This document shows positions 8,337 through 9,512 of a DNA stretch of 10,383 bases, in pieces. Under the pieces are notes generated by a model. The model saw only the letters and a program-made list of their open reading frames with translations, was not told the origin of the DNA and did no database searches. The stretch is from Candidatus Komeilibacteria bacterium RIFCSPLOWO2_01_FULL_45_10. Its GTDB lineage: Bacteria > Patescibacteriota > Patescibacteriia > UBA1558 > UBA10009. The stretch is from positions 3,037 to 13,419 of the forward strand of contig MHKL01000030.1 of the NCBI GenBank assembly GCA_001818835.1, given 5' to 3'. The position numbers and the translations under genes were made by a program. Numbering within the stretch: the first letter of the stretch is position 1; each line of letters starts with the position of its first letter.

Positions 8337-9512
8337 ATGAAAATCCTAGGCATTGAAACATCGTGCGATGAAACGGCGGCCGCGCTGCTGGAAATTACGA
8401 GTAACAAATTCCCCGCCTGCCATCGGCTTCGCCTCTGGCGAATGGCGGGCAGGCAAGTAACAAAAAAATCTCAAATTCCAAAATTCAATGTCCAAACATT
8501 GAGTAACGTTGTTTTGTCGCAAACGGAAATCCATAAAAAATACGGCGGGGTGGTGCCGGAAGTGGCGGCGCGCCAGCACGTTCAAGCGATTATTCCCGTT
8601 ATCAGCGAAGCTTTAAATGGGCAGAAGCCTGATTTAATTGCCGTCACTCAAGGGCCGGGACTGATTACCTCACTGCAGGTTGGCGTGCAGACGGCCAAGA
8701 CCTTATCTTATGTTTGGAGTGTGCCCCTGGCAGGCGTTAATCATCTGGAAGGGCATTTGTGGAGCTTTTTGTTGAAGCAAGAAAGCAAAGAAGCAAGAAA
8801 GCAAGAAAGCAAATATTCAAATAATCAAATACTCAAATTACCCGCCGTTGCCCTTATTGTATCGGGAGGTCATACTGAACTTATTTTAGTTAAGGGCATT
8901 GGTCATTATAAATTGATCGGGCAAACCAGGGATGATGCGGCGGGCGAGGCGTTTGACAAAGTGGCCAAGCTTTTAGATTTAGGTTTTCCGGGAGGGCCGG
9001 TGATTGCCCATTTTGCCAAAGAAGGCGATGCCACTAAAATCAAATTTCCCCGGCCAATGCTTGATTCCGGCGATTTTGATTTTTCTTTTTCCGGCCTTAA
9101 AACGTCCGTCAAGTATTATTTAAATCAGATTGTACCGTCAGGCAATTTAAGCCAGAAAATGACCAATGATATCTGCGCCGGTTTTCAAAAAGCGCTGATT
9201 GATGTTTTAGTCAGCAAGACCGCCAGGGCGGCGCGAGAATTTAATGCCCAGTCAGTAATTTTAGGCGGGGGAGTGAGTGCGAATGAATTATTAATCGCAA
9301 CTCTCAAATCGCGAATCGCGAATTTTGGAATAAATTTTTATTATCCTGAAAAGCAATTTACCCCGCACCACTTTTTGCGCGCAAAAAGTGGTGCGGGGTT
9401 TACCGGCGACAATGCGGCCATGATTGCGCTGGCGGGATATTTCAATATCAAAAAATCCAGCCAAGCCAGCTGGAAAAAGTTAAACGCCGAGGCGAATTTA
9501 AGGTTAGTTTAA
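8337..9512 (+). CDS. tsaD: tRNA N6-threonylcarbamoyladenosine synthesis protein TsaD, with in-frame insertions
   Basis: Transfers the threonylcarbamoyl group onto A37 of ANN-decoding tRNAs (t6A), together with TsaB/TsaE/TsaC, none of which is in the window. Core motifs: GIETSCDETAAA (5-16), YGGVVPEVAARQH (69-81), GPGLITSLQVG (107-117), the metal site NHLEGH (His136, His140) and Asp358 in GDNAAMIALAG, SGGHTEL (176-182), GQTRDDAAGEAFDKVAKLLDLG, FSFSGLKTS, and GGGVSAN (310-316). All are intact, so function is likely kept. It has 391 residues, while the family is about 330-345. The extra length falls in three places that coincide with repeat DNA: residues about 22-54, about 147-166, and a 14-residue block (about 343-356) just before Asp358. 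The start gives the canonical N-terminus. Confidence 0.96.
   Translation: MKILGIETSCDETAAALLEITSNKFPACHRLRLWRMAGRQVTKKSQIPKFNVQTLSNVVLSQTEIHKKYGGVVPEVAARQHVQAIIPVISEALNGQKPDLIAVTQGPGLITSLQVGVQTAKTLSYVWSVPLAGVNHLEGHLWSFLLKQESKEARKQESKYSNNQILKLPAVALIVSGGHTELILVKGIGHYKLIGQTRDDAAGEAFDKVAKLLDLGFPGGPVIAHFAKEGDATKIKFPRPMLDSGDFDFSFSGLKTSVKYYLNQIVPSGNLSQKMTNDICAGFQKALIDVLVSKTARAAREFNAQSVILGGGVSANELLIATLKSRIANFGINFYYPEKQFTPHHFLRAKSGAGFTGDNAAMIALAGYFNIKKSSQASWKKLNAEANLRLV
8401..8464. repeat. Dispersed palindromic repeat, copy 2, inside the tsaD frame
   Basis: ACAAATTCCCCGCCTGCCA (8404-8422) and TGGCGGGCAGG (8443-8453) are identical to the intergenic copy at 5441-5483; the loop here carries an extra perfect TCGCC-TCT-GGCGA hairpin (8429-8441). 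The 8-bp direct repeat GTAACAAA flanks it (8401-8408 and 8457-8464, 56 nt apart). It encodes residues about 22-42 of TsaD, a stretch absent from ordinary TsaD proteins. Since 56 is not a multiple of three, either the unit boundaries differ from the direct repeat or a second indel restored the frame. Confidence 0.85.
8775..8838. repeat. Two adjoining 8-bp tandem arrays inside tsaD
   Basis: Nearly five copies of AAGCAAGA (8775-8813, one unit AAGCAAAG) are followed by three copies of an 8-bp unit NNTCAAAT (8815-8838). They encode the hydrophilic loop KQESKEARKQESKYSNNQIL, between the metal-site helix and the SGGHTE strand, where TsaD normally has a short variable loop. Slippage in an 8-bp array would shift the frame unless three units change together. 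Confidence 0.85.
9357..9404. repeat. Perfect 40-bp palindrome with flanking 6-bp direct repeat inside tsaD
   Basis: ACCCCGCACCACTTTTTGCG (9360-9379) is followed immediately by its exact reverse complement (9380-9399). TTTACC stands at 9357-9362 and again at 9399-9404, 42 nt apart. Deleting one 42-nt period restores QFTGDNAAMIA, the ordinary TsaD sequence. This is strong evidence for a frame-preserving insertion of a palindromic element with target duplication. Confidence 0.9.

Follow-up and report, generated by a model that had tools for sequence, protein, structure and literature searches.

A palindromic insert in tsaD of a Patescibacteria genome, read as a miniature transposable element with relatives at prepilin cleavage sites

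How does a perfect palindrome come to lie inside a coding sequence and leave its reading frame open? The question is raised by tsaD, the essential gene for tRNA N6-adenosine threonylcarbamoyltransferase, in a 10,383-nt stretch of Candidatus Komeilibacteria bacterium RIFCSPLOWO2_01_FULL_45_10 (contig MHKL01000030.1, positions 3,037 to 13,419; G000:C30:3037-13419 in our numbering), hereafter the window, which belongs to a Patescibacteria draft genome of 594 kb in 45 contigs. We propose, with a probability of about 0.86, that the palindrome belongs, as its shortest size class, to a Patescibacteria family of miniature inverted-repeat transposable elements (MITEs) and was inserted in frame into tsaD. 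Recurrent landing is seen in other genomes, at the prepilin cleavage site, and not in tsaD.

The palindrome in tsaD

The features of the locus, with the evidence for each, are:

8337..9512, + strand: tsaD, 391 codons, with the element in frame (open reading frame, family score, fold model)
9357..9360, + strand: TTTA, read as the left 4-bp target duplication (sequence; the 4-bp size from 35 genome copies)
9360..9399, no strand assigned: perfect 40-bp palindrome, the element flanked left and right by a single target base (repeat analysis, shuffles)
9361..9398, + strand: closed 38-bp element, two back-to-back 19-bp terminal inverted repeats CCCCGCACCACTTTTTGCG (sequence, family comparison)
9399..9402, + strand: TTTA, read as the right 4-bp target duplication (sequence, family comparison)
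9408..9410, + strand: codon of the invariant Asp358, starting 6 bases past the right duplication (54-sequence alignment)

The two arms of the palindrome (9360-9379 and 9380-9399) are 100% complementary with zero spacer, and their half-length of 20 compares with a mean of 7.04 and a maximum of 11 in 200 dinucleotide shuffles of the window. The reading frame runs uninterrupted through them, and the product scores 354.1 bits against the TsaD family TIGR03723 (curated cut-off 296.1), so that the preliminary description of this locus, a TsaD gene whose reading frame runs through a perfect 40-bp palindrome, is borne out. TTTACC does stand on both sides, 42 nt apart, at 9357-9362 and again at 9399-9404; the right-hand CC is native tsaD sequence, and the left-hand CC is the element's own end. 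The 38 bp of the element and 4 bp of duplication amount to 42 nt, or 14 codons, with the residues TPHHFLRAKSGAGF. These residues had been thought foreign to TsaD, and they are indeed absent from the TsaD of the four other genomes of the same family that were compared (4/4) and from every other scorable homolog (0/111, among 120 listed, 8 of them unscorable); two Thermotoga-type PDB sequences of TsaD have an alignment gap at the same position. The insert lies shortly before Asp358, which is invariant across the alignment of 54 TsaD sequences and which we take to be a metal ligand. In a predicted structure, the check on loop placement proposed at the outset, the TsaD fold is intact and the insert comes out as a loop of low confidence (model of the protein alone, from 54 sequences).

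Two further segments of tsaD are repetitive. An unrelated dispersed repeat at 8400-8496, also in frame, consists of a hairpin CCCGCCTGCC...GGCGGGCAGG with a aaatctcaaattcc tail; it has ten matches in the genome including the one in tsaD, and one of them (L209, 92% identity) lies in frame within leucyl-tRNA synthetase. A third insert, at 8773-8838, is built of short repeats of the aagcaagaa type, and residues 158-162 have a predicted local distance difference test score (pLDDT) below 50 in the model.

A dispersed family and its flanks

Is the palindrome an isolated oddity? Searching the source genome and other Patescibacteria for it, as had been suggested, found the inverted repeat YCCCGCACCACTTTT at 36 places in the source genome and also in other members of the phylum. 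The 36 are a count over the stretches read and not a full census, so weaker relatives may exist; they comprise 35 two-ended copies from the surrounding stretches and one (L176) found later among prepilin genes. The terminal-repeat consensus TCCCGCACCACTTTT is held at 84-100% at positions 2-15 across the 70 ends of the 35 copies, ends that were selected for likeness by admitting at most three mismatches each. Element lengths fall at 35-39 bp (10 copies), 65-73 bp (7) and 101-117 bp (19), with none intermediate, and the tsaD copy, whose two ends meet, belongs to the shortest class. Successive classes are separated by about 31-36 bp, a spacing that helical phasing of the two ends may explain; copies outside the source genome are less tidy, at 33-45 (13), 53-57 (3), 68-71 (2), 80-89 (3) and 96-109 (21) bp (n=42).

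The tsaD copy is open in five of six frames; 15 of the 26 long copies (of 35) are closed in all six, and a long copy would therefore often have disrupted tsaD. Open frames of at least 90 codons that extend at least 60 nt beyond both ends surround 2/35 copies, those in tsaD and at L032, and at L032 the candidate start codon falls after the element. Among copies shorter than 60 bp, the period is divisible by three in seven of the eight placed inside genes, an assignment that is our own judgement, versus 5/18 of the others (p = 0.007). Nine long copies contain a nested GTAG...CTAC palindrome, resembling a repetitive extragenic palindromic (REP) repeat within a MITE; seven are of the GTAGGGACAGG type (L016, L028, L030, L032, L050, L069 and L074) and two of the GTAGAGACGCA type (L019 and L077).

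The flanks carry the signature. The 4-mers on the left and right are identical in 23/35 copies and differ at no more than one position in 28/35, whereas re-pairing the flanks at random in 10,000 trials gave a mean of 9.2 exact matches and a maximum of 17. They vary among copies, which identifies them as duplicated target rather than element sequence, and they change together on the two sides (TTGA/TTGA, TCAA/TCAA, TAAG/TAAG, TGTA/TGTA). A 6-bp duplication, TTTACC, is rejected: sharing is 4 bp genome-wide, 5-mers agree in 2/35 copies, and the duplication in tsaD is TTTA. Oriented by duplication alone, TTTA accounts for 44 of the 64 sites with at most one mismatch, and the base after the target is a pyrimidine at 25/28 source-genome sites and at 19/21 other non-prepilin sites (L176 of the source genome among the latter); the tsaD target reads TTTA CC. 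As far as sequence can tell, the 4-mer pattern marks the family as a MITE that duplicates 4 bp of its target, typically TTTA.

On this basis, a transposase acting in trans would recognise the terminal inverted repeat YCCCGCACCACTTTT of about 15 bp and make a cut staggered by 4 bp at TTTA, in most cases where a pyrimidine comes next; insertion would leave the 4-bp duplication. In tsaD the point of insertion would have been the Phe-Thr codons TTT ACC, directly ahead of Gly-Asp(358)-Asn. With a length of 42 nt, duplication included, a stop-free sense frame and a position in a loop, the element would add 14 residues to TsaD and leave the fold in place. Transposition may be active in the family, and the protein is probably made with its insert and probably still works.

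Other genomes and the prepilin cleavage site

In the source genome the exact 14-base half has 50 occurrences, versus 6 in total over 35 other genomes of the order; the half plus flank was found in 11/380 genomes sampled from the class, and closed palindromes in 6/379 genomes of a phylum-wide sample, the source genome being included in both. A scan of named genome contigs, with the source genome left out, returned 23 stretches, 15 of them from Patescibacteria (Taylor-, Falkow-, Doudna-, Kerfeld-, Kaiser- and Magasanikbacteria, isolate SURF_31 and GWF2_45_11). Five of the eight other stretches (L134, L138, L139, L144 and L150) have single ends that lie in open coding frames with no partner end, and we take these for chance matches. 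In the remaining three, whose contigs carry the names Nanoarchaeota, bacterium and Deltaproteobacteria, the ends are paired, and these could reflect misbinning or true spread; the copy in the contig labelled Nanoarchaeota (L145 2909-3004) has TTTA at each side. A second Tsa protein is also affected: in a Falkowbacteria genome a 38-bp copy lies in frame within TsaB, the partner of TsaD, and this TsaB still scores 77.6 bits against the NCBIfam TsaB model (cut-off 69.3).

Where, then, does the element land most often in proteins? Outside the source genome 42 copies were counted as pairs with a core of 28-125 bp and at most three mismatches per end (a prepilin copy in G221 was excluded because its span is too long), and 15 of them directly precede F-[TS]-x-x-E, the mature start of type IV pilins. 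Three of the 42 (L173, L183 and L192) came through a prepilin search. Among the 39 found blind to context, 14 lie exactly at the prepilin Gly|Phe cleavage site, in seven genomes: five copies in SURF_31 (G061), three in Taylorbacteria 46_13, two in G055, and one each in G018, G155, G515 and Magasanikbacteria SI048_bin34. Ten proteins were scanned, including TsaB and the G221 pilin; seven match N_methyl at E <=0.001, five of them above the curated cut-off, and two match no family. The right end of the element followed by TTTACN translates as K-S-G-A-G|F-T, so the glycine before the cut is restored. The site can be hit repeatedly, as indicated by four prepilin homologs (P0122, P0123, P0157 and P0209, of 120 listed) that apparently carry at least two inserts in series, judged from protein letters only, and by one tandem double copy in SURF_31. 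TTTAYY occurs at about 3.8 per kb in the window, and if prepilins make up 10% of tolerated sites, an assumed share, the binomial probability of 14 or more of 40 copies at prepilin sites is p = 2e-5.

These observations raise the prospect, which we put at somewhat below even odds, that the element ends encode an escape at the protein level: the rebuilt Gly|Phe site would let prepilin peptidase remove the insert together with the leader, the prepilin start would serve as a reusable safe harbour, and TsaD and TsaB would be off-target landings that survived as in-frame loop inserts. Against a strict prepilin preference, none of the 35 source-genome copies is at a prepilin site (three prepilin matches were found in that genome, two with plain GFT sites and a third with a copy slightly upstream). 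Gene duplication in SURF_31 and Taylorbacteria reduces the number of independent events behind the binomial figure. A variant copy in the source genome, CCCGCACCGCTTTG (L176 1952-1986, G000:C35), separates a pair of prepilin genes: it lies at the stop codon of the first and right ahead of the leader of the second.

Compatible with a transposable origin, though rather unlikely, is the idea that the prepilin copies were kept as a beneficial, domesticated leader, with the element supplying a start codon and leader instead of finding a safe place to land. The pilin gene cluster of SURF_31 (L120 3460-8554, G061:C16) holds copies of about 105 bp, and three of the five prepilin copies in this genome carry an ATG and a leader, MDFHPKKFP..., that ends in KSGAG right before FT; a fourth (L137) has its ATG within the adjacent copy. 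The fifth (L120 4800), however, has no ATG visible in the frame shown, the SURF_31 series could stem from gene duplication, and the short copies in G018, G515, Taylorbacteria and Magasanikbacteria extend a leader that was already present.

Other explanations, the transposase and known elements

Returning to the MITE itself, several results weigh against it. The flanking 4-mers fail to match exactly in 12/35 copies, with two or more differences in seven. Only one of the four relatives (G002) has TTTA at the insertion site, the others having CTGA, ATAC and ATAC-like codons. A length of 38 bp is also very small for something that transposes, and the intact fold comes from a model confined to TsaD on its own. 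Nor was an autonomous element or a transposase with these ends found, in a search of three Pfam transposase families and with a source genome that is 72.75% complete. PF13701 (IS1380-type), chosen because of the CCC ends and the 4-bp duplication, is present in 0/35 genomes of the order, to which that search was confined. PF01609 was found in 6/18 chosen genomes and PF13546 in 1/18, and the 11 loci fetched showed no convincing pair of element ends. An end pair beside a Falkowbacteria transposase, read by eye, lies outside the transposase frame in a stretch resembling tRNA genes; where similar flanks accompanied ends at a distance of 0.5-4.5 kb, these were judged separate neighbouring elements or weak matches, and no long transposon was seen among them. 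A viral scan yielded three loci and nothing useful.

Could the palindrome instead be REP-like, moved by a REP-associated tyrosine transposase (RAYT) or an IS200/IS605-type enzyme, with the flanking tetranucleotides as fixed recognition sites? REP repeats are palindromes of 20-40 bp in many copies, as sections of PMC3733652 describe, and the family shares with the GTAG- or CGTC-tagged repeats its short palindromes and high copy number; its perfect hairpin, a recurring TTTA-like flank and the nested palindromes of nine long copies also speak for such an origin. We nonetheless consider this origin improbable: the 4-mers vary within one genome and change in step on left and right, unlike a fixed recognition site, flanks being varying duplications, and the 35-copy consensus ends in YCCC/GGGR and bears neither a GTAG nor a CGTC tag (the search did not extend to a RAYT gene).

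More improbable still is that the insert is missing from the final protein, through ribosomes bypassing the hairpin between the identical TTT ACC codon pairs or through removal of the RNA hairpin. Known bypass elements have identical codons flanking a hairpin, and here such pairs enclose one of about -31.5 kcal/mol. The frame is open through the insert, however, plain reading gives an intact protein with no stop to force a bypass, and with only 2/35 copies in long open frames transposon ends account better for the hairpin.

An assembly artefact or local templated strand switching, for which only the draft state of the genome (45 contigs, 72.75% complete) speaks, is scarcely credible given the same sequence at 36 places and in other genomes, flank repeats that vary in step, and the 391-aa protein's place as representative of a 90%-identity cluster of seven members on two contigs (the longest 6,800 bases, compared with 14,967 for the source contig), a cluster known by its representative that also speaks against an artefact of a single assembly.

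How does a MITE of this kind compare with known systems? It has the hallmarks of prokaryotic MITEs, namely terminal inverted repeats, target duplication, no transposase gene, short length (35-117 bp) and 36 copies; unlike typical ones, its closed 38-bp form has almost nothing in it beyond the paired end repeats, and the tsaD copy is open in most frames. According to passages of PMC10969869 and PMC2996958, short palindromic selfish DNA can lie in frame in protein genes that are not related to one another, as a rule in segments without structure; Rickettsia palindromic elements, of about 150 bp, lie in open reading frames in nearly half of cases (PMC10969869, in part), and protein-writing selfish palindromes are described in portions of PMC2996958 from Rickettsia, Wolbachia and one archaeon. 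Like the Rickettsia elements and the protein-coding Wolbachia and Methanocaldococcus palindromic repeats, the present family inserts in frame in unrelated genes (TsaD, TsaB of Falkowbacteria, and prepilins in seven genomes). Unlike the Rickettsia elements, it measures 35-117 bp and is mostly outside recognisable genes in the source genome, has a clear 4-bp target duplication and recurs, among relatives, at prepilin cleavage sites. By analogy, the Patescibacteria family thus appears to work like Rickettsia palindromic elements, a likeness of behaviour; the parallel in the preliminary description stands for in-frame insertion and carries no claim of kinship. Our literature search, in a limited collection, returned no paper matching in-frame palindromic elements in Patescibacteria, MITEs in the Candidate Phyla Radiation, or palindromic elements associated with prepilins.

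In conclusion, the tsaD palindrome points to another family of self-inserting palindromes, this one in Patescibacteria and with a transposition signature that can be read from its varying 4-bp duplications, which makes the origin and spread of inserts within proteins testable. The repeated landings at prepilin sites suggest a general route by which mobile DNA may hide in genes, where a host protease removes the insert. Odd insertions in the proteins of Patescibacteria can, moreover, be mobile DNA rather than adaptation.
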